From IMG/VR virus record IMGVR_UViG_3300027759_004238, positions 1 through 64,000 of that record: 64,000 bases of DNA. One strand, given 5' to 3'. Position 1 is the stretch's first letter; every line of letters begins with the position of its first letter. This document shows positions 42,079 through 64,000 of the stretch, one piece after another. Origin of the DNA: a virus. The notes beneath the pieces are model-generated. The model searched no databases. It was not told where the DNA came from and saw only the letters and a program-made list of their open reading frames with translations. The position numbers were made by a program, and so were the translations under genes.

Positions 42079-42672
42079 TTAAATTACTTTGGTGGTTGCT
42101 GTAAAACAATCCCGAACAATTTCATAAAAAATGTCATCAATTTTGCTAGCCAACTTTTCAACCAACTCATCTGTTAAGAAAAGAGAAAATGCAAAACTAG
42201 GTGCTCTTTCACCCGCACTAATATTGATTCCAAAATGACCCAAGGCAACTGTGTCTGTTACTTTGGTAATGCTTACACTAGCTTTGCCCCATTCTTCTCT
42301 ATTATTCTCCCCCATGCCCTTTTTGCGAAGCATTAAATCATCTCCATTTACTTCAACATCATAAAGACCAAACTTGTCTGTTCTGAAAAGGTTAGCAATT
42401 TCTTGCACAAATAGACGCTGAAAGAATACAGCTCCGATAGCATTCATGTTAGGAATCTCCCAGCAAATGCTCAATGCATCATCAGAATAAATAAAATCAT
42501 CAGATAGTTTATCCTCTAAATCAATCAGATTATCTTTAACGTCCATATTGCCTCTGGTAATATAAAGGACACCAAGTGGATTGTATTCTTTACGAAAGAT
42601 TCTGTAACCAAATCGTTCGTGGATCAAAGATCCGTCATAGTCTTCATCATTATAAATTCTAGATCTGCTCAT
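42079..42672 (-). CDS. DUF366-like protein near queC (197 aa)
   Basis: Start taken at ATG 42672 (MSRSRIYNDEDYDGSL), after the upstream gene's stop. Key blocks are GNMDVKDNLIDLEDKL, FIYSDDALSICWEIPNMN, FFQRLFVQEIANLF, VNGDDLMLRKK, then KASVSITKVTDTVALGHFGI. The order DlED - S(D).l.f..E - QRL - GDDL - SVSI - HFGiN is that of the mainly archaeal DUF366/COG2029 proteins as I recall them. The fold and reaction are unknown to me. Conserved His, Asp and Glu suggest an enzyme. It is the last of four adjacent genes QueC - amidotransferase - glycosyltransferase - this, so a role in base or nucleotide modification is possible. Confidence 0.5.
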   Translation of the reverse strand: MSRSRIYNDEDYDGSLIHERFGYRIFRKEYNPLGVLYITRGNMDVKDNLIDLEDKLSDDFIYSDDALSICWEIPNMNAIGAVFFQRLFVQEIANLFRTDKFGLYDVEVNGDDLMLRKKGMGENNREEWGKASVSITKVTDTVALGHFGINISAGERAPSFAFSLFLTDELVEKLASKIDDIFYEIVRDCFTATTKVI

Positions 42673-42694
42673 ATTTTTATTATATAGTTTGTTT

Positions 42695-43393
42695 TTAATT
42701 TGTACCGTAGGTTTGCTTGAATATTTCAGCACTGATCTTCCAATCTTCAGAAAGCATACTATCACCTAGACCGTGGTGGATTGCTCTTATAGGCAACACA
42801 CCAATTTTTACTTTTGCTTTATTACACTCAAGACAGAAGGCTAAATCATAATGATGAAATTCAAACTTTTCATTAAATTTAACAGATTTATCCCTTAAAG
42901 CTTTGACGTCTACTGCAATAAAAAGTCCGTCTATCAAAAGGGCTCTGGAATCTGTGGATCCAAAACTAGTTGTCCAAACATTTTTTTTGCCCTCTTTAAT
43001 TTCTGCATGAGCCACTTCCCCAACCCAATCTTCTTTGCCACTCATTAAATGCCAACCAGAAGGTTTACTCAAGTCTGCCTTTTTTGTTCCTGCCAGACCA
43101 GTTACCTCATAAGGAGATTCTCTCAATTTTTCAATTAAAAACACATCTTCTAGTTCAACATCATCATGTACAAACAAAAGTATATCCTTTGAATACTTTG
43201 GGTCTTCTAAAAATTTGTTATAAACCTTAGACAAACCTTCTTTGTTGTTTTTTACGACAACAAAATCAAATTTATTCAAAGTAAAAAGATCTTTAGAGTC
43301 ATAATGTCTCTGTAGAGATTTAAAAATTGGACGTTTTTCAAATTCTTGCATTGACTTGGCTTCTGTTGCAATAATTGCAGTTACTTTTTTCAT
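42695..43393 (-). CDS. GT-A fold glycosyltransferase, StrF/Glyco_tranf_2_5-like (232 aa)
   Basis: Starts VTAIIATEAKSMQEFEKRPI. LLFVHDDVELEDVFLIEKL carries the DDxE-type metal/sugar-nucleotide motif. Next are ALLIDGLFIAVDVKALRD and FHHYDLAFCLECNKAKVKIG, then AIHHGLGDS, all typical of the StrF-type GT2-like family. It should transfer a sugar from an NDP-sugar; acceptor unknown. Its ATG overlaps the amidotransferase stop (4 bases, ATGA), so the two are probably translated together. Placement beside queC-like genes leaves open that the acceptor is modified DNA, but virion or host glycans are equally possible. Confidence 0.7.
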   Translation of the reverse strand: MKKVTAIIATEAKSMQEFEKRPIFKSLQRHYDSKDLFTLNKFDFVVVKNNKEGLSKVYNKFLEDPKYSKDILLFVHDDVELEDVFLIEKLRESPYEVTGLAGTKKADLSKPSGWHLMSGKEDWVGEVAHAEIKEGKKNVWTTSFGSTDSRALLIDGLFIAVDVKALRDKSVKFNEKFEFHHYDLAFCLECNKAKVKIGVLPIRAIHHGLGDSMLSEDWKISAEIFKQTYGTN

Positions 43394-44031
43394 ATAAAAT
43401 AAGTGTTGGTGTACGGAAAGGTTCCACTCTTTTCAAATTTTCCGTCTTTATAATCAAATATAACACCATCATCTTCCACACATTCTGCACCTTCAAACTT
43501 GGAAGAAGAAAAGGAATTTTCATCCATCCATAGAGAACTGCCCGCTTTAACTAATTGTATTCTATCCCTGTTTACTATCCAACAGGTAAACAATCCTTCG
43601 TATTTTGAAAATGTTTCAACAATGTTTTGAGTTTTCGATAGATGTTCTGGAATTATTTGAGAATCTATTGTTAGATGTTTACTTTCTTCAAAAGAAGAAA
43701 AATTTGTTATAATTCCATTATGTGCTACGAGATAATCTGGGCCACTGGAAGACGCAAACGGGTGTGTAGTTTCTTGGCTCCAGGTTGTTACTGTACTATT
43801 TGTAGGAGCCCTGGAATGGAATAAAAAATAATGATAGTTGAAAGGGCTTTGAGCAAATTGTTTTTTAAAATGAGATATATAATCCTCATCATATGTATTT
43901 GCTATTCTGCTTACATTGGATCCTCTGGAGCCAACTGCTAGCATACCCGAGGACTGGGCACCTCTTTGTAAATTAAGTTTATAAAGAGCAAACGCCTTTT
44001 CTAAATTGTTAGATCCACTAATTGCACACAT
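43390..44031 (-). CDS. Class II glutamine amidotransferase (213 aa), QueC partner
   Basis: MCAISGSNNLEKAFALYKLN has the N-terminal-nucleophile Cys at position 2. LFHSRAPTNSTVTTWSQETT gives the conserved Arg strand, DYLVAHNGIITNFSSFEE the HNG oxyanion motif and LTIDSQIIPEHL the Asp-Ser pair. The domain releases ammonia from glutamine. In some archaea and in phages such as 9g a domain of this type is fused to QueC (Gat-QueC) and converts preQ0 to the archaeosine base. Here it is a separate gene 3 bases after queC. No synthetase domain other than QueC is nearby, which supports that pairing. Confidence 0.8.
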   Translation of the reverse strand: MCAISGSNNLEKAFALYKLNLQRGAQSSGMLAVGSRGSNVSRIANTYDEDYISHFKKQFAQSPFNYHYFLFHSRAPTNSTVTTWSQETTHPFASSSGPDYLVAHNGIITNFSSFEESKHLTIDSQIIPEHLSKTQNIVETFSKYEGLFTCWIVNRDRIQLVKAGSSLWMDENSFSSSKFEGAECVEDDGVIFDYKDGKFEKSGTFPYTNTYFI

Positions 44032-44034
44032 ATC

Positions 44035-44778
44035 TTAATATAATGGTTCACAATTCCAATTTTGCCACGGTATATCTCTAGAATATTTTAGAGGATCAAT
44101 TTTTTTGGAGTGAATAAACCCTGCAATTCTTGCTGAACAACTAGGACACTCTCCACAGGATTTTTCGTGTTCTGTGTAACATGTCCTCGTCAGTGCAAAC
44201 TCAACTCCTAATTCAATACCGTATTCTATAATTTCTTTTTTTGTTTTATCTATTAGAGGTGTTTTAATCTCTATTAAATTCCTACGATTTAAGGATAAAA
44301 TGGTATTTAGATAATTTCTAAAGTCAGCTGTACAATCCCAGAACCCTGATGTATCATCTGCTTTTGCTGCTCCGTATAGTACGTGAGTTGCACCCACACT
44401 CTCTGCCATTCCAACGGCCAATGATAAAAATATCATATTTCGATTGGGTACATAAGCATTATTTTGAGGATCTCCAATAACCTCTTTCATTTTAGGCACC
44501 TCTATCTCATCATTTGTTAATGCTGAATTAAAATTCAATAGCTTAACTGGAAGGGGCAAGCGTGAATATTTGATTTTTTCTGCATATGAAGATTTTAAAA
44601 TGTAACTGGTAAGATAATCTTCTGCATTTGTTAATTCTCTAATATTACGTTGCCCATAATCAATAGCTAAAGCATACACTTTATCATAATTGGCTAATGC
44701 ATGATGCAGTACAACGGTACTGTCCATGCCTCCGCTAAATAAAACTACACAAGACTTCAATGTATTTGTACTGTCCAT
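44035..44778 (-). CDS. queC: QueC-like 7-cyano-7-deazaguanine (preQ0) synthase (247 aa)
   Basis: The PP-loop CVVLFSGGMDSTVVLHHAL (SGGMDS at about 15-20) binds ATP. YALAIDYGQRN, PNRNMIFLSLA and YGAAKADDTSGFWDC are QueC blocks. The C-terminal zinc site reads TRTCYTEHEKSCGECPSC, with four Cys as in the family. QueC turns 7-carboxy-7-deazaguanine into preQ0. With the adjacent amidotransferase it may instead act as Gat-QueC on preQ0. QueD, QueE, FolE and a DpdA-type inserting enzyme are not in this window. ATG start at 44778, divergent from the 191-aa gene 22 bases away. Confidence 0.9.
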   Translation of the reverse strand: MDSTNTLKSCVVLFSGGMDSTVVLHHALANYDKVYALAIDYGQRNIRELTNAEDYLTSYILKSSYAEKIKYSRLPLPVKLLNFNSALTNDEIEVPKMKEVIGDPQNNAYVPNRNMIFLSLAVGMAESVGATHVLYGAAKADDTSGFWDCTADFRNYLNTILSLNRRNLIEIKTPLIDKTKKEIIEYGIELGVEFALTRTCYTEHEKSCGECPSCSARIAGFIHSKKIDPLKYSRDIPWQNWNCEPLY

Positions 44779-49661: not shown

Positions 49662-49790
49662 ATGAGTATGATAAGAACCAAGCAATTGGTAAAAACTATA
49701 AATCCTCATTATTATGGAGCCAATAGTCAAAACACACCTCAAATTGTAAAAAATATTAGAAAGTCTGGAATAACCATTGTTAAAAAATGA
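49662..49790 (+). CDS. Small basic protein (42 aa)
   Basis: ATG at 49662 gives MSMIRTKQLVKTINPHYYGA, a 42-residue basic peptide ending IVKK. Its TGA overlaps the ATG of the next glycosyltransferase (ATGA). A GGAAG just upstream would suit the second ATG at 49668, one of few Shine-Dalgarno-like sites in the window. The sequence is too short to assign. It fills the whole gap between neighbours, which supports translation. Confidence 0.45.
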   Translation: MSMIRTKQLVKTINPHYYGANSQNTPQIVKNIRKSGITIVKK

Positions 49791-50860
49791 TTACAGAAGA
49801 AGAACTTTTAAAAGAAATTAAAAAAGGAGTTGAAGACTGTAGAACTTTACATTATGTGATAATAGACTCTACGGTGTGCAAGGATTCTAATATCAATATA
49901 GCAGAAGAATTATTAAGTGATAAAAATTTAGCCTGGTTAGAGCCACAAGATGGTGTTTATGTTATAAACACCCATTTATTGTCACATTTTATCAATTATT
50001 TTGACAATTTATTTGGCTTGATACAAAAATTGGTAAATTGTGGATATGTTGTAAACTCTTTGCGTTTTGGAAGAGTAATGTCTCAAAGAAAATTTAATTT
50101 TGAAGATAAACCAGAAGATTCTCTGGTTCGTATTGCTATTGTTACAATGTTTTCCAATAAAGCATTTGTAGAATATTGGAAAACCTTTTTAAGAGAAACT
50201 TGTCTACCAGAAAATATCATAGTAGATGTAATTCTAGGAGATAATAGTGATGATAATAAAATTAGAGATTTATTATATGATGTAATGTCTCAATGTGGTC
50301 GCAAATATAACAACTATTATATTTGTGATTTAGGAAAATCTTATCAAATAAAAGAAGGAGAACACTATCTGGCTATAGATAAACACGTTCATGTAGCAGT
50401 TAATTATTCAGAATTGCTTAGAGAACCTTCTTTACATTATGATTATATATTGAAAATAGAAGATGACATGGAGCCACCTAATGATGGTTTTCAAAAATTA
50501 TATAAACACATGAAAAATTTGAAAAAACAAAAAAAGAAAGTGGCATGTGTGGCTGGATATTATCCACAAAAATTAAATCCATTAACTACTTGCATATCAA
50601 TGCAGCCCGAATTGTGGGGTAAAATTCCTAGAGTTGATGAAATGCAACCTCGATTGATACGAGTAGAGATGCAAGGCGGTGGCTTTGCTTTATATAATTG
50701 CAAGGCACTTCAAGAGGTTCTTCCTTATAAATTAACCTATAAATTGCCTCACGGAAATTATTATATGACTGGGTGGGATGGAACTATAGGTGAAGAGTGG
50801 GCTGAAGATGGCTGGGAACAGTATGTAGACGGGTCAATGTATTGCGCACATCATTTTTAA
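49787..50860 (+). CDS. Glycosyltransferase with GT-A domain (357 aa)
   Basis: An N-terminal ~110 residues of unknown type (HYVIIDSTVCKDSNINIAEE) precede a GT-A domain. The domain reads VRIAIVTMFSNKAFVEYWKT, VDVILGDNSDD, YDYILKIEDDMEPPNDG (IEDDM as the DxD motif) and MQGGGFALYNCKALQEV. It ends with a WDG...EEWAEDGW block that looks catalytic. Acceptor unknown. First of the plus-strand glycosyltransferase genes, overlapping the preceding 42-aa frame by 4 bases and 1 base from the next gene. Confidence 0.7.
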   Translation: MITEEELLKEIKKGVEDCRTLHYVIIDSTVCKDSNINIAEELLSDKNLAWLEPQDGVYVINTHLLSHFINYFDNLFGLIQKLVNCGYVVNSLRFGRVMSQRKFNFEDKPEDSLVRIAIVTMFSNKAFVEYWKTFLRETCLPENIIVDVILGDNSDDNKIRDLLYDVMSQCGRKYNNYYICDLGKSYQIKEGEHYLAIDKHVHVAVNYSELLREPSLHYDYILKIEDDMEPPNDGFQKLYKHMKNLKKQKKKVACVAGYYPQKLNPLTTCISMQPELWGKIPRVDEMQPRLIRVEMQGGGFALYNCKALQEVLPYKLTYKLPHGNYYMTGWDGTIGEEWAEDGWEQYVDGSMYCAHHF

Positions 50861-50861
50861 T

Positions 50862-51209
50862 ATGTCAGAAGAATCATTAGAAGATATAGATTGGGAATTA
50901 TACAAATTGTATAACGAAGACCTCTCTCATATGAATGAAGAACAATTGATTATACACTACACCAGATTTGGTGTGCACGAAAATCGTAAACATAAACACA
51001 TTTTACCTGAAAAATTTGACTCTAATAATTACAAAATAATGAATAATGATTTGGAAAAATTAACAGATTTAGAACTTAAAAAACATTACACATTACACGG
51101 TAAAAGAGAACAAAGGTCTTATTTGTTAACAGATGAACCTAATAGAAAAGTTTCTACCAGAACTGTTGAAAATGTAAAAATTCAGGGAATTACATACGTT
51201 AGTGTATAA
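50862..51209 (+). CDS. Small protein with two 'HYxxxGxxExR' repeats (115 aa)
   Basis: Two copies of a ~45-residue repeat are visible: DWELYKLYNEDLSHMNEEQL with IIHYTRFGVHENRKH, then NYKIMNNDLEKLTDLELKKH with YTLHGKREQRSY. This HY...G..E.R motif is common as an appendix to bacterial and giant-virus glycosyltransferases, where its role is unknown. Here it is a stand-alone gene between two glycosyltransferase genes, so a targeting or scaffolding partner is plausible. It begins 1 base after its upstream neighbour's stop. Confidence 0.65.
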   Translation: MSEESLEDIDWELYKLYNEDLSHMNEEQLIIHYTRFGVHENRKHKHILPEKFDSNNYKIMNNDLEKLTDLELKKHYTLHGKREQRSYLLTDEPNRKVSTRTVENVKIQGITYVSV

Positions 51210-51214
51210 TTTTT

Positions 51215-52000
51215 ATGGAATATCTTTCTCTTACAACCTGTGTTAAAAACGAATCTCATTACATCCAGGAATGGTTGACCTATTACAAGACCCTTGGCGT
51301 TGAAAAATTTTATGTTTTTAATGATAAGAGTACTGATGACACAGAAGATAAAATAAATGATCTATCTTTCCGAGATGATATACTTTTAATAGATTTTGAT
51401 TCACCAAGCCCAGATAGACAGGGTTATGCTTATCAAGTTTCTTATAAAAATTACGGAAGAAACAACACTGAATGGATGATATATTGTGATGCAGATGAAT
51501 ATTTCATGCCAGAAGAACCAACAGATTTAAGGACTTTTCTAGAAGATTATAAAAATTATTCCGGGCTGGGTGTCAGCTGGCGTATATACGGTTCTTCCGG
51601 AAATATATTAAGAAAACCTGGTACTTGTTTAGAAAATTTTTTATACAGAGCTCGTGATGACTGGCATCCTAATACTCATGTAAAAGTAATAGTTAAACCC
51701 AATGAAATAAAAGGTTATATGACACCTCATATGTTTTCTACCACCAAAGGAATAGTAAATGAAAACGGCGATTTAATAGATGAAACTCAAGAAGGTAGAA
51801 TAGAAAAATCAATAGCAAATAAAATAAGAGTTAATCATTATTTTAACAGATCTTATGAAGACTGGATAGAAAAAAGACGAAGAGGAAGAGCCACTGTTAA
51901 TGAAAAAAGGCCTATAGAAATGTTTGATACATATGATAAAAATGATGTCTATGATGACCTAGCTCTTAAATATGTAGAAAAAGTTAAAAAATTGTTATGA
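51215..52000 (+). CDS. Glycosyltransferase, GT92/GT2-like (261 aa)
   Basis: YLSLTTCVKNESHYIQEWLT, YYKTLGVEKFYVFNDKSTDD and WMIYCDADEYFMPEEPTD are hallmark blocks of Glyco_tranf_2_4/GT92: KNE..yi.EWl.y....Gv..fyi.d..S.Dd, and D.DEF. DADEY is the metal-binding DxD. The C-terminus contains IRVNHYFNRSYEDWIEKRRR, also typical. It transfers a sugar (galactose in many relatives). The stop overlaps the next ATG by 4 bases (ATGA). Confidence 0.85.
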   Translation: MEYLSLTTCVKNESHYIQEWLTYYKTLGVEKFYVFNDKSTDDTEDKINDLSFRDDILLIDFDSPSPDRQGYAYQVSYKNYGRNNTEWMIYCDADEYFMPEEPTDLRTFLEDYKNYSGLGVSWRIYGSSGNILRKPGTCLENFLYRARDDWHPNTHVKVIVKPNEIKGYMTPHMFSTTKGIVNENGDLIDETQEGRIEKSIANKIRVNHYFNRSYEDWIEKRRRGRATVNEKRPIEMFDTYDKNDVYDDLALKYVEKVKKLL

Positions 52001-52791
52001 AAAAAATAAATTGGTTTTTTTGTTTGAATGAAAATAGGTCCGGGGCCTTTATGGACATGGCTAAAGTTGCAGTTCTAAGTTCATTGAGTTACAATTTTAA
52101 TGCTTACTGCTTATATGATGGTGATAATAAAGAATTCATTAATTTTCTAAAAGAAAATGGAGTGACTGTAATATTACACGAATCTTCTTTTAAAAATAAA
52201 ATAACAGAAATGGTTGAAGAGGTTGCTCACAAAACTTTTTATGGGGCCTTTTTGCGCATAGATATACCTTTAATAATTAAACAGCTAAACTTGGATATAG
52301 AGTATTATTTGTATACAGACTGTGACGTTATTTTTACCAGAGATCCTACAGATTTTTTATTGAAACTTACTCCAGAAACCATAGCAGCCACTGGAGAATT
52401 TAATCAAAATGATGTAAAGATGTTCAACTCCGGTGTAATGTGGTGTAATACCAAAAATATGCTTGATACATATCAGGAATTTTATGATTTTGTAATTTCC
52501 AAACAATTTAAATTTGTAGCGACAGATCAAGGAGCATTAAATGAATTTTATAAACATCAAAAAATATCAGATGAAATAAATTGGAAACCTTATTGGGGCA
52601 TAAATGAAAGTGCCTATTTAATTCATTTCCACGGACCTAAACCCTATCATTTTAAAATATACCTTAATGAAAGTAGAAAATTAACAAACCCTCACATTAA
52701 AAACTACGGTAGTTTTCTTAATGAAAAGCATGAGCTAGAATACAAATACTGCGTTAATCTATACAACGGCTTTTTAAGACAGACCTATTAA
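51997..52791 (+). CDS. Glycosyltransferase family 8-like (264 aa)
   Basis: INWFFCLNENRSGAFMDMAK leads a GT-A domain with TFYGAFLRIDIPLIIKQLNL, then EYYLYTDCDVIFTRDPTDFL, in which DCD is the DxD motif. KMFNSGVMWCNTKNMLDTY and TDQGALNEFYK follow, and YLIHFHGPKPYHF near the end. This is the glycogenin/LgtC-like GT8 layout (retaining). Overlaps the GT92-like gene by 4 bases. In other systems GT8 enzymes act on lipopolysaccharide or on protein-linked glycans. Confidence 0.8.
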   Translation: MKKINWFFCLNENRSGAFMDMAKVAVLSSLSYNFNAYCLYDGDNKEFINFLKENGVTVILHESSFKNKITEMVEEVAHKTFYGAFLRIDIPLIIKQLNLDIEYYLYTDCDVIFTRDPTDFLLKLTPETIAATGEFNQNDVKMFNSGVMWCNTKNMLDTYQEFYDFVISKQFKFVATDQGALNEFYKHQKISDEINWKPYWGINESAYLIHFHGPKPYHFKIYLNESRKLTNPHIKNYGSFLNEKHELEYKYCVNLYNGFLRQTY

Positions 52792-52796
52792 ACATT

Positions 52797-53798
52797 ATGA
52801 AAAAAACAAAATACTTTGATAAATCCTCTAGTTTGCACTTTCAACCAGATCCATATTTTTTATATGAGCTTCCTAAAGGATCTTTTATGTCCATGGATGG
52901 GGATATAGATGTAGCTAAAGACTCTTTTGGAGAAATAATACGTTCGTGTTCTGGTAATAGGATTAAAGATAGTAAAAAAGAAGCTATACCGGAAAAAATT
53001 CCAAAACATACTATAAAGAGTGATAAAAATTTGCTTCAGTTAAATACTGGTAGCCATTACTGGCATCTTCATCATGAGACTATCGGGCAATTTTTGCTTT
53101 ATAAAGATTTGGGTGTTCTTGAAAAATATACACCAGAGAACACTGCCATACTTATGACGTGGTGCAGAGCAGGTAACGTTTTAAAAGAAGTCCTGCGACA
53201 CATTTTTAATTTTAATATAGATAGTTATGAGCTAATTTTTGCGGAACGTGATGTTCTATATACTACAAAAGAAAATCTTGTAATTTCAACCAAAACATCC
53301 ACGGCTGGGTGCCTACCTTTATCCTATTTTTCAGAAAAATTAGAAAAATACTTAATTCCTGAAGAGAACCCAACAGATTTTATATATGTAGGCAGGGATG
53401 ACTCCGATTGCAGGCTTTTGCTAAATCAAGAAGAAATACTACAGTTTTTAAATGAAAACGATATACCAATTAGAAAAATTACATTAACCGGAATGCCTTA
53501 TATAGAACAAGTACAACTATTCAGAAACGCAAAATTTGTAATGGTTATCGGCGGTACAGGAAGTACAAACCAAATATACTGCAACCCAAACAAAGCTAAA
53601 ATACTATTTGTATCTCCTAAGAACGGAGCTTTACAGTGCAGTCAACGCACAGCAAAGGGGATGAATATGGCCTATAGTGGCCTTGAGATCGGAGAAAATT
53701 TTACTCCCACTAATAAAGCCAGAGCCTCGGATCCTACTTGTGCAAATTTTAAACTCAGAAAAGAGGATGTACTCAAAAAAATACAAAGTTTGTTATAA
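52797..53798 (+). CDS. Glycosyltransferase family 61-like (333 aa)
   Basis: NTGSHYWHLHHETIGQFLLY, CLPLSYFSEKLEKYL, then PTDFIYVGRDDSDCRLLLNQ, LTGMPYIEQVQLFRNAKFVM and VIGGTGSTNQIYCNP. These follow the GT61 (DUF563) pattern: yi.R.....R...Ne.e, l...s..eQi.lf..A..vvg.hGagl.N..F. GT61 enzymes add xylose, arabinose or GlcNAc in other systems. Substrate here unknown. Translation starts at ATG 52797, 5 bases after the GT8-like gene. Confidence 0.75.
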   Translation: MKKTKYFDKSSSLHFQPDPYFLYELPKGSFMSMDGDIDVAKDSFGEIIRSCSGNRIKDSKKEAIPEKIPKHTIKSDKNLLQLNTGSHYWHLHHETIGQFLLYKDLGVLEKYTPENTAILMTWCRAGNVLKEVLRHIFNFNIDSYELIFAERDVLYTTKENLVISTKTSTAGCLPLSYFSEKLEKYLIPEENPTDFIYVGRDDSDCRLLLNQEEILQFLNENDIPIRKITLTGMPYIEQVQLFRNAKFVMVIGGTGSTNQIYCNPNKAKILFVSPKNGALQCSQRTAKGMNMAYSGLEIGENFTPTNKARASDPTCANFKLRKEDVLKKIQSLL

Positions 53799-53805
53799 AT
53801 CCAAT

Positions 53806-54783
53806 ATGAAAAAAAATAAAATATGTCTAATATTTCACATGCACGGACAACTGCATCCGTTTTTTAATTTATTTTTGTACAGCTTGGCACAAAATAAGAA
53901 TATAGACTTTTTGTTTATCAATGACATAAAAAATAAACCGGAACTACCTTCTAATGTAATAGATAAATTTTTAACTGCTGAAGATTTAAATCCCATGTTA
54001 ACTGCTACTTTAAAAGATTGGTTTGATTTAGATATCCCGGATCCTTTGCTTTTAAACGTTAGAGAAAAAGAAACTGTATTTAAAGCAAAAACTCCAATGT
54101 ATAAATTTGCCGATTATAGGTGTTATTTTGATGACATTTTTAAAAAAGACTTAGAGGGGTATGAATATTGTGGTTATTTTGATAATGATACCATAATGGG
54201 TGATATTGAAAATATAATACAACCTTTAATGGATAAAAACTATAATTTTATAGGTTCTAGAGGGCATTTTTGTCTATATAAAAATGATGGGTTTATTAAA
54301 CAAATTCTCACAAATATTGGTGTTTGGCCTGAAAATGGGCATAAAAATTATTTAAACCTTAGTTTAAATAAACATAAAGATGAACTTATTAACAAAAATC
54401 ATAAACATCTTTTAACTTGTGAAGGGTGGTCACAGGGCACTGTAAAGGTGTATTCTACGTTGATTCCAACTTATAAATTTTATAAGTTGACGGAAAACGG
54501 TGAAATGTGTGATTTGTTTAACCCCGCAGAAAATGCTTCTTATAAAGATGTTTTCATACCAAGACATTTTGAAGAAAATAATATTAAAAATTACACCAAC
54601 CAGTATTTTTCTTATCAAAAAGGAAAATTATTTAGAATTCAGGACGAGCGGGGCATTAAAACCGAACATCTGTATTTGCACTTAATAGGCAGAACCAAGC
54701 TCATGATTAACAACATTAACATAACTAGTTATAATGAGGGACTGAGTTTTAACATAAAACCTAATTATTTTGAATTAATATGA
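53806..54783 (+). CDS. DUF6625-like putative glycosyltransferase (325 aa)
   Basis: The ATG at 53806 gives MKKNKICLIFHMHGQLHPFF, 7 bases after the previous stop. A longer frame from 53677 runs inside the GT61-like gene and is rejected. Key segments are FADYRCYFDDIFKKDLEGYE, YCGYFDNDTIMGDIENIIQP (DNDT replacing DxD) and IGSRGHFCLYKND. This matches the DUF6625 layout (k..DfrP.fg.if...l..y.fwGy.D.D...Gdi). Such proteins sit in bacterial polysaccharide and LPS gene clusters. Catalytic function unproven. Last gene of the cassette. Confidence 0.7.
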   Translation: MKKNKICLIFHMHGQLHPFFNLFLYSLAQNKNIDFLFINDIKNKPELPSNVIDKFLTAEDLNPMLTATLKDWFDLDIPDPLLLNVREKETVFKAKTPMYKFADYRCYFDDIFKKDLEGYEYCGYFDNDTIMGDIENIIQPLMDKNYNFIGSRGHFCLYKNDGFIKQILTNIGVWPENGHKNYLNLSLNKHKDELINKNHKHLLTCEGWSQGTVKVYSTLIPTYKFYKLTENGEMCDLFNPAENASYKDVFIPRHFEENNIKNYTNQYFSYQKGKLFRIQDERGIKTEHLYLHLIGRTKLMINNINITSYNEGLSFNIKPNYFELI

Positions 54784-56684: not shown

Positions 56685-58052
56685 TTAAGAAATAATTTCT
56701 TTAACCACGTTTCCAAAGTTATCAGTTAATCGAAACTCTCTTCCGTTATAATTGTAAGTCAATTTTTTATGATCAAATCCCATAAGGGCTAAAATTGTAG
56801 CATGTAAATCATGAATATGTACTACATCTTTAATTGATTTGGAGCCGGTTTCATCTGTTTCGCCATATCGCTGGCCGCCTTTAACACCTCCACCAGCCAT
56901 CCACACAGAAAATGCCTTACCATTATGATCTCTTCCAGGGGCACCCGCGCCGCCGCCTGCCGTGACAGTACGACCAAACTCTCCACCCCAGATTACAAGA
57001 GTGGAATCTAGCTGTCCTCGCTGTTTAAGGTCAGTAAGAAGAGCAGAGAAGGCTTGGTCATATCTACCAGCGGTCCGGGTCATAGCTGTTTTTATATCCA
57101 TATGATGATCATAACCACCAACTTGGACTTGAACATACCGAACTCCTCTCTCTACCAGGCGCCGAGCAACCATCATTTTATTTCCTTCTTCGTTTTTGCC
57201 ATATAACTCATGGGTAGCTTCTGATTCTTTAGATATATCAAAAGCGTCTGTTGCTTCTGTTTGCATCTTAAATGCAGTTTCAAATGTTTCGATTCTAGAT
57301 TCCAGCTGAATGTCCTTCTGTAGGCGACTCATGTGATCATAATTCATCATCTTGGCTAAATCTAACTGCCGGCGCTGGCGGTCTAATGTAGAAAACTGAC
57401 TGGTTAGATTAGAAAGGATCTGATCTGACTTCATGTTATTTTTATATTGAACATTGCAACCCTGAAACATTCCGGGTAAAAAAGCACACTGTCTCCATTC
57501 TGGACTCCCATTTAAAGAAATGAATGCCGGCATATTTTGATTAGTGGTTCCTAGTCCATATGCCAACCAACTTCCTAAACTAGGCTTGGGCAATTGTGCT
57601 GATCCGGTATTAAACATTTTTTGGGCAATGTTGTGATCAGGAATTTCGGTAAACATGGAATTGATGATCGCCATATCATCAGCATGAGCTCCTAACTTGG
57701 ACCATACTTCAGAAATGTGCAATCCAGATTTACCAAATCGAGGAAACTCGAAAGGTGAAGCAAGAAGATTGCCATTGTCTCCTTTTTGGCCATCTCTTTT
57801 TTGCAGTTCGGGTTTGTAATCAAACGTATCAACATGGCTTGGAGCACCACTTGCTACTAGTTGAATGACTGCTCTTGCCTTTACAGGAAAGTGTGGATTT
57901 TTTGCTGCAAGAGGAGATACGGCTTCGGCTGTATTAGGACATACTCCCAACAAAGAAGCTAAAGACAATCCTCCCATACCCCACCCAAAATTAGTTAATA
58001 ATTCTCTCCTAGTAGTAGGAACGGACTCGATATGATTACCACAGTCTTTCAT
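56685..58052 (-). CDS. DUF1501 family protein with Tat-type N-terminus (455 aa)
   Basis: The N-terminus carries a twin-arginine motif (SVPTTRRELLTNFGWGMGGL) followed by a hydrophobic stretch and likely Ala cleavage region. DUF1501 blocks then follow: IQLVASGAPSHVDTFDYKP, PFEFPRFGKSGLHISEVWSK, AQKMFNTGSAQLPKPSLGSW, VIWGGEFGRTVTAGGGAGAP and PGRDHNGKAFSVWMAGGGVK. Length is typical (430-480 aa). The family is exported, related to sulfatases/alkaline phosphatases, and abundant in Planctomycetota and relatives; function is poorly known. Finding it in a T4-like phage is unusual. GC looks higher than in neighbouring genes. ATG in a TAATATG junction with the other DUF1501 gene. Confidence 0.88.
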   Translation of the reverse strand: MKDCGNHIESVPTTRRELLTNFGWGMGGLSLASLLGVCPNTAEAVSPLAAKNPHFPVKARAVIQLVASGAPSHVDTFDYKPELQKRDGQKGDNGNLLASPFEFPRFGKSGLHISEVWSKLGAHADDMAIINSMFTEIPDHNIAQKMFNTGSAQLPKPSLGSWLAYGLGTTNQNMPAFISLNGSPEWRQCAFLPGMFQGCNVQYKNNMKSDQILSNLTSQFSTLDRQRRQLDLAKMMNYDHMSRLQKDIQLESRIETFETAFKMQTEATDAFDISKESEATHELYGKNEEGNKMMVARRLVERGVRYVQVQVGGYDHHMDIKTAMTRTAGRYDQAFSALLTDLKQRGQLDSTLVIWGGEFGRTVTAGGGAGAPGRDHNGKAFSVWMAGGGVKGGQRYGETDETGSKSIKDVVHIHDLHATILALMGFDHKKLTYNYNGREFRLTDNFGNVVKEIIS

Positions 58053-58053
58053 A

Positions 58054-59325
58054 TTATGCTATAAGTTCTTTTACTGCTGTTCCGTTATAAACAACCGCAA
58101 CGGGCCGGCCATCTTGTGTCATAAGCTTAGAATCTGGATCAATTCCAAGCTGAGTATACAGAGTTGCCGCTAGGTTTTCAATAGTTAGAGGTGAATTATC
58201 CACATCTCCTCCAGTTGCATCAGAAGCACCGTGAATATATCCACGTTTAAAGCCTCCACCCGCAAATACTACTGAAAATACTCGAGGCCAATGATCTCTT
58301 CCGCCGTCTTTATTAATTTTTGGAGTACGACCAAACTCAGAAGATACCATTACAATGGTGTCATTAAGCATTCCTCTTTGATCTAAGTCGTTAATTAAAG
58401 TAGAATAAGCCTGATCAAAGGGAGGCAATGTCTTGCTGATCCCTGAACCAATACCAGTATGCATATCCCATCCTCCATATGTTACAGATACAAATCGAAC
58501 TCCTGATTCAACTAGGCGGCGAGCCATTAACAAACGCTGGCCGGCTTGATTGCGGCCGTAAGCGTCTCGGAGCATATCTTTTTCCTGGGTCAGATCAAAA
58601 GCTCCTCTTGCTTTCGGCGAAGCAATAAGATCATACGCCTGTTGGTAGAACGTATCCATGGCAGTAAGATTGTCACTCTTTTCTAGATATTTAAAGTGAC
58701 TATCAACTGTGTCAAGAATTCCTAGTCTTTTGCTAAAGCGCTCATCACTAACTGTGGTTTGAAGATCTCTTACTTTAAATCCAGGAGCTGCAGGGTCACT
58801 GCCTAAGCTAAAAGGACCAAATGCATTAGAAAGATATCCGGTCCCTGCCACATCGCTACCATTGTTGTCTAATTTTTGTGGAATACAAACGTATGCTGGC
58901 AAATTATTTTTGCTACCAAATTGATGAGACGTAACTGCACCAAAAGATGGGTAGTTAACTGCTGGAGAAGGCCTATATCCGGTAAACATGGTACTGGTTC
59001 CTCTCTCGTGAGCGGCATCACCATGGGTCATAGATCGAACTACTGTAATCTTATCTGCAATCTTTGCTGTCTTGGCCAAGTGTTCAGAAAAATGTACACC
59101 AGGAATTACAGTTTGTACGGAACCTAAGGGTCCTCTATACTCTGCAGGTGCTAATGGTTTTGGATCCCACATTTCTTGAGCGGCAGCTCCGCCGGGCAAA
59201 TAGATATGTATTACTGACTGTGCCTTCGGAACCAACCCAGACTGCGCTTGCAGTTTGAGCATGTCACCCGTAGCTAAACCCAAACCCCCAAACAACCCAG
59301 TGTATAAAAAATCACGTCTGTTCAT
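58054..59325 (-). CDS. DUF1501 family protein with Tat-type N-terminus, second copy (423 aa)
   Basis: Begins MNRRDFLYTGLFGGLGLATG, a short Tat-type signal. Then IHIYLPGGAAAQEMWDPKPL, PAEYRGPLGSVQTVIPGVHF, SEHLAKTAKIADKITVVRSM and THGDAAHERGTSTMFTGYRP. Later blocks are VMVSSEFGRTPKINKDGGRD, HWPRVFSVVFAGGGFKRGYI and NLAATLYTQLGIDPDS. These are the standard DUF1501 blocks, and all appear intact. It is only distantly similar to the neighbouring copy, so the pair is not a recent duplication. ATG at 59325 with ACTAAATA 5 bases upstream, so it is under phage-type late control. Confidence 0.9.
   Translation of the reverse strand: MNRRDFLYTGLFGGLGLATGDMLKLQAQSGLVPKAQSVIHIYLPGGAAAQEMWDPKPLAPAEYRGPLGSVQTVIPGVHFSEHLAKTAKIADKITVVRSMTHGDAAHERGTSTMFTGYRPSPAVNYPSFGAVTSHQFGSKNNLPAYVCIPQKLDNNGSDVAGTGYLSNAFGPFSLGSDPAAPGFKVRDLQTTVSDERFSKRLGILDTVDSHFKYLEKSDNLTAMDTFYQQAYDLIASPKARGAFDLTQEKDMLRDAYGRNQAGQRLLMARRLVESGVRFVSVTYGGWDMHTGIGSGISKTLPPFDQAYSTLINDLDQRGMLNDTIVMVSSEFGRTPKINKDGGRDHWPRVFSVVFAGGGFKRGYIHGASDATGGDVDNSPLTIENLAATLYTQLGIDPDSKLMTQDGRPVAVVYNGTAVKELIA

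Positions 59326-61012: not shown

Positions 61013-64000
<2,988 letters not shown>

Follow-up and report, generated by a model that had tools for sequence, protein, structure and literature searches.

A phage cassette linking QueC and an amidotransferase to a glycosyltransferase and a DUF366 protein points to a probable 7-deazaguanine DNA modification with an added step

Introduction

Replacement by 7-deazaguanine is one of the few known guanine changes in DNA, and the forms known in DNA carry, to our knowledge, small groups. In Enterobacteria phage 9g, a fused Gat-QueC protein makes the amidine in a deoxyarchaeosine pathway with DpdA (PMC6884629). The DNA of Vibrio phage nt-1 contains dPreQ0, dG+ and dADG (PMC6884629), and the two activities are encoded there by separate genes: behind DpdA2 and QueC lies ORF392, a class II amidotransferase gene that starts at the QueC stop.

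Here we describe a cassette with a similar layout in an uncultured phage, in which QueC and a stand-alone amidotransferase (Gat) are joined by a glycosyltransferase (GT) and a DUF366 protein. We analysed a 64-kb stretch (the window) of a virus record of 81,289 bp. We favor the reading, with a probability of roughly 0.7, that these genes belong to a pathway that modifies DNA with a 7-deazaguanine and that includes a further hypermodification step, one that has not been described.

Results

A conserved four-gene cassette

A preliminary description of this DNA had reported QueC, a class II amidotransferase, a glycosyltransferase and a DUF366-like gene side by side, and we found all four there on the minus strand (Table 1). 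The genes are tightly packed on one strand throughout, with 3 bp between QueC and Gat and a 4-bp overlap of Gat and GT, both as first described, and 22 bp between GT and DUF366. More than 20 non-identical environmental loci preserve the cassette, which is therefore not a chance arrangement. No Rfam elements or tRNAs were found within the 64-kb window.

Table 1. Coordinates of the cassette and of other features in the window, its record and related loci
Feature	Sequence	Position	Strand	Evidence or remark
QueC, 7-cyano-7-deazaguanine synthase, 247 aa	window	44035..44778	minus	PF06508 6.6e-55; TIGR00364 above cut-off
Gat, stand-alone class II glutamine amidotransferase, 213 aa	window	43390..44031	minus	active-site residues conserved; weak GATase_6/7
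GT, GT-A/family-2 type glycosyltransferase, 232 aa	window	42695..43393	minus	PF13712 7.4e-9
DUF366 protein, 197 aa	window	42079..42672	minus	PF04017 2.6e-17; predicted biotin/lipoate-protein-ligase fold
QueE	record, beyond window	78028-78780		
Glycosyltransferase/sugar gene run	window	49787-54783		varies between relatives
Glycosyltransferase/sugar gene run	L002	7655-14171		varies between relatives
Two adjacent DUF1501 proteins	window	56685-59325	minus	PF07394, 9e-129 and 1e-110; Tat-like N-termini
Collagen-like G-x-y repeat protein, 1301 aa	window, on to record 64918	61013-64000	minus	GC 0.555 vs ~0.35 around
IMPDH/GMP reductase, cassette insert	L262	6108-7085		
Sugar epimerase, cassette insert	L009	8305-9336		
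GIY-YIG-like homing endonuclease frame, cassette insert	L139	6669-7565		recognized by eye
Divergent DpdA, GT and degenerate DUF366-like protein	L272	9808-11794		three-gene unit in QueC-less phages

The original identification of QueC holds. The protein scores 186.3 bits against PF06508 (cut-off 22) and 166.9 bits against the NCBIfam equivalog TIGR00364 (cut-off 150.3), and it carries the SGGMDS loop, a VPNRN motif and a Cys4 zinc site. The canonical QueC signature comprises SGGxDS, VPxRN, C(x)8CxxCxxC, YxQxHxxE and YPDC (PMC13329287). SGGMDS and VPNRN fit this signature, and the remaining elements are present as the variants C(x)7CxxCxxC, YGQRNIRE and FWDC; the WDC variant also occurs in nt-1 QueC. 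The closest isolate homologues are those of KVP40/nt-1-type Vibrio phages, at 36-38% identity.

These features bear on the idea that QueC joins 7-carboxy-7-deazaguanine (CDG) to a protein, as proposed for type IV CBASS Cap9 and for QatC, and yields no free base. QueC-family enzymes have been repurposed for such deazaguanylation (PMC13329287), and DUF366 has a protein-ligase fold. However, the window QueC scores above the canonical equivalog cut-off, its SGGxDS and VPxRN motifs and a four-Cys zinc site are retained, QueC co-occurs with QueD, QueE and DpdA, and none of the neighbors searched is a CBASS or Qat partner. We consider deazaguanylation extremely improbable at this locus.

Gat matches Pfam GATase_6/7 at only 1e-3, under the curated cut-off, and a PHROG aminotransferase family at 5.9e-10. 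Cys2, RG, HP, HNG and D123 are kept across seven aligned sequences including Vibrio phage nt-1 ORF392, and the N-terminal Cys nucleophile and RG/HNG motifs mark the protein, on sequence grounds, as the class II glutamine amidotransferase that had been proposed. A scan with this one protein returned no viral relatives; its patterns were too strict. The PF13712 score of GT exceeds the cut-off, in agreement with its first annotation, and HDD is invariant and HHYD nearly invariant among 10 homologues.

The 197-aa protein, initially called DUF366-like, is a true DUF366 member in an HMM comparison (PF04017, 63.3 bits, cut-off 29.9). Its ATG at 42672 is conserved in relatives. A longer frame runs to a GTG at 42765 without conservation, and judged from this the GTG is not the likely start.

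The missing pathway enzymes lie on the record and in syntenic relatives

The record carries T4-type genes for capsid, portal, protease, baseplate, clamp loader, an SbcC-like protein and polymerase, a gene content that identifies it as a fragment of a T4-like phage. DpdA, QueD, QueE and FolE had been reported as absent from the window, which is correct for the 64 kb, and were expected elsewhere. This expectation held for QueE, which is encoded farther along the same record; DpdA, QueD and FolE2 were found in syntenic relatives, and DpdA is not on the 81-kb fragment, the last frame of which is a DNA polymerase gene cut short by the record end.

A DUF366 scan gave 13 relatives, most of which share the gene order around the cassette, and the large relatives among these records were examined over their full length. 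The order in G001, G002, G003, G005, G008 and G009 is DNA polymerase, DpdA, ThyX (in most) and UvsX, with QueD following where the record extends far enough. The six relatives that span this position all encode, directly after the polymerase, a DpdA-type transglycosylase of the TGT fold (271-303 aa). FolE2 (PF02649, 2.3e-63) lies farther along in G001, G002, G005 and G009. Because the window's record ends roughly one gene before the expected position of DpdA, we infer by synteny that its phage encodes this enzyme as well. We detected no DpdA in G007, G022, G025 and G032, all four of which may be fragments. Proteins of G002 at 99962-101775 were considered as DpdA and dropped.

The relatives' transglycosylase matches phrog_19058 (1.3e-39), the annotated DpdA ("DNA guanine transglycosylase") of Flavobacterium immuto phages (4e-52) and a Campylobacter CP220-type phage protein (2e-36), and it shares conserved Asp and His residues with the CP220 and immuto proteins. 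An AlphaFold model of moderate confidence (pLDDT 72) has its best PDB matches among tRNA-guanine transglycosylases (3hfy, 6.7e-8). The CP220/immuto-type group was reportedly named DpdA3 by Cui et al. 2023. Searched with PF01702 (TGT), 12 records gave no transglycosylase, and Pfam likewise gives nothing for the known DpdA2 of nt-1. We therefore discarded this negative and relied on position and PHROG to find DpdA.

The window alone holds just QueC and an amidotransferase, a content that would also suit a boost to host tRNA queuosine through preQ0 supply during infection, with no DNA modification. Hutinet et al. (PMC6884629) proposed such a boost for phages that have pathway genes and no DpdA. 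Set against this, six of the six syntenic relatives encode a DpdA with homology to proteins annotated as DNA transglycosylases, without a PF01702 TGT, and the upstream pathway is probably phage-encoded too, which makes a role confined to tRNA very unlikely. QueE on the record and DpdA, QueD and FolE2 in the relatives argue instead for the 7-deazaguanine DNA modification suggested at the outset, and we regard the core pathway as well supported.

No QueF was found in the window's group, and we rejected conversion of preQ0 to preQ1 by QueF there for this reason. We therefore place the base of the window's phage most probably at the stage of ADG, preQ0 or G+, to which a sugar and an acyl group may be added. 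QueF is present in a distant marine group, so the product may differ between groups. In these marine relatives (L268-L273), DpdA adjoins an AAA_28 kinase, a bimodular QueF and, in some, a formyltransferase-like gene, and the end product there is perhaps another one.

DUF366 is a predicted ligase-fold protein that is lost together with QueC

The model of the 197-aa DUF366 protein (pLDDT 86) resembles the DUF366 structure 2ddz from Pyrococcus horikoshii (Foldseek 1.5e-11, TM 0.77-0.80), and the two share the sequence family (PF04017) as well as the fold. Further matches are the biotin protein ligase 2ej9 (2.1e-6, prob 1.00, TM 0.50-0.59) and LplA 1x2g (1.3e-5). By its modeled fold, DUF366 belongs to the biotin/lipoate protein ligase superfamily, and the lysine of its KxSVSI motif is presumably the lysine of that superfamily.

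Using an alignment of the phage copies, we found at least 585 viral stretches that encode DUF366 relatives. Many of these loci have no QueC alongside, so whole records were checked for it. Among the large records (n=18), all 12 with intact DUF366 encode QueC and none of the six without it does (Fisher 5e-5, uncorrected for kinship), and DpdA is present in nine of those 12. The same pattern was observed on the GT tree, where DUF366 is intact at each of the 32 QueC loci and at none of the 33 GT loci in which neither QueC nor Gat was seen; well-supported branches force at least seven changes of the QueC+DUF366 label. QueC-less loci carry a DUF366-like protein without DxED, GDD, the KxSVSI lysine and HxGxN. 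Nothing else argues as strongly for a role of DUF366 in the 7-deazaguanine pathway as this repeated joint loss. Some QueC-less phages carry a three-gene unit, as at L272 (Table 1).

Outside phages, DUF366 of Vampirovibrionales adjoins glyS and a peptidoglycan glycosyltransferase gene, and no que genes lie near the bacterial copies examined. The family is thus not specific to 7-deazaguanine, and its cellular role may differ. Genuine isolate phage records gave no DUF366 match at E 0.01. "Microcystis phage MaAM05" (L044, MW495066.1) was rejected as such an isolate, since its neighborhood and best matches are those of Vampirovibrio-like bacterial DNA. The stretch examined carries SecDF, glyS, fabI, flagellar and Pom genes, and the GenBank entry MW495066.1 is likely misassigned. 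Cui et al. 2023 are said to have assigned the decarboxylase DpdL from isolates; DUF366 is unlikely to be DpdL, as no genuine isolate matches it. Our literature searches returned nothing that links DUF366 to 7-deazaguanine.

GT moves with QueC and Gat

Nine distant marine records, six of which are non-redundant, hold QueC, Gat and GT side by side at a different locus, next to UvsX and DnaB; in these records DUF366 has kept its original position. GT lies directly after a divergent DpdA, in place of QueC-Gat, at 16 non-identical loci, and the order is QueC-GT-Gat at 7 loci. The gene order of the cassette thus varies and its membership holds. Some cassettes contain additional genes, among them an IMPDH/GMP reductase between QueC and Gat, an NAD-dependent sugar epimerase (PF01370) between Gat and GT, a GNAT-like acetyltransferase (a weak match, under cut-off) and a homing endonuclease-like frame (Table 1). 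The relocation of GT and the inserted genes would fit a decorating role.

Another account is that the modification is of a known type only: DpdA inserts dADG, dPreQ0 or dG+, Gat feeds ammonia, and GT and DUF366 are unrelated neighbors, such as an enzyme for surface sugars and a ligase that acts on proteins. The same bases occur in nt-1, where Gat is also directly behind QueC, and further glycosyltransferase-like genes are numerous in the window's phage, at 49.8-55 kb and 69.6-76 kb. Moreover, G030 and G031 keep GT at the same locus without QueC, DpdA and DUF366; GT can therefore have another job, and shared position alone proves little. Against this account, QueC, Gat and GT move as a group, the DUF366 active site is lost repeatedly whenever QueC is lost, and membership stays constant as the order shifts. 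We judge this account less likely and continue to favor a 7-deazaguanine pathway with an added step.

Other genes in the window

Two adjacent DUF1501 genes lie in the window, and one or both are also present in the relatives G002 and G005. DUF1501 genes are typical of Planctomycetota/Verrucomicrobiota, and the pair therefore hints at a host in these groups. The collagen-like repeat protein that runs past the window's end is probably a virion fiber. Runs of glycosyltransferase/sugar genes occur in the window and in L002 (Table 1).

Discussion

How might these genes work together? In the scheme that we propose, FolE2, QueD and QueE would convert GTP to CDG, which QueC, with glutamine-derived ammonia from the separate Gat, would turn into the amide (ADG) or the nitrile (preQ0). 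Supplying ammonia would be the simple role of Gat; by analogy with Gat-QueC of 9g, it may instead carry the reaction on to archaeosine (G+), the amidine. The 7-deazaguanine base would then be exchanged for guanine in phage DNA by a DpdA of the CP220/immuto type. GT would add a sugar in the same pathway. DUF366, with its ligase fold and conserved lysine, probably handles an acyl or aminoacyl group, which it would activate or transfer; the acceptor would be the base itself or an intermediate of the pathway. The modified DNA would presumably serve as a shield against host nucleases.

Co-evolution and mobility suggest that GT and DUF366 decorate the product. We put forward only tentatively the most specific form of this proposal, a hypermodified 7-deazaguanine in DNA that is glycosylated by GT and acylated or amidated by DUF366, which would give DUF366 its first function and add a new class to the known DNA bases. 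A widespread environmental lineage with a co-evolving ligase-fold enzyme and GT points to guanines with bulkier decorations. DUF366, so far without a function, gains a testable pathway, and the cassette offers specific enzymes to follow up by mass spectrometry or to develop into tools for blocking restriction enzymes. A pathway with GT and DUF366 was not found described in the searchable literature, a scope that did not take in Cui et al. 2023.

Several described systems share parts of this locus. Phage 9g resembles the window's lineage in its Gat and QueC chemistry, FolE, QueD, QueE and a DNA transglycosylase (PMC6884629). It differs in its fused Gat-QueC, which is split here, and in its DpdA group, and GT and DUF366 are not described for it. 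Since the two window genes are 3 bp apart, the pair may act like Gat-QueC outside the fused family. CP220-type and immuto phages share with the window's relatives a homologous transglycosylase, QueC and QueD, and a thymidylate-kinase-like neighbor of DpdA. Unlike the window, they have no annotated amidotransferase adjoining QueC and no DUF366, and the immuto phages have an extra QueF and a formyltransferase-like gene near DpdA. For DUF366, a working analogy may be drawn with CmoA/CmoX/CmoY of phage carboxymethylcytosine hypermodification, in which a carboxylated base is the handle for an ATP-dependent ligase (PMC12783734); the base and the enzymes are different, and we claim no homology.

The nt-1/KVP40-type Vibrio phages, which have the closest isolate QueC homologues, are likewise T4-like and carry FolE and QueD-type genes. 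Their transglycosylase is DpdA2 rather than the CP220/immuto type of the window's relatives, and they have no DUF366 match and no cassette GT adjoining QueC. The split Gat-QueC layout emphasized in the preliminary description is real, but nt-1 has one too, and it is less unusual than was implied. What is already known from nt-1 is the split QueC/amidotransferase pair; what is new in the window's lineage is its two partners, GT and DUF366.
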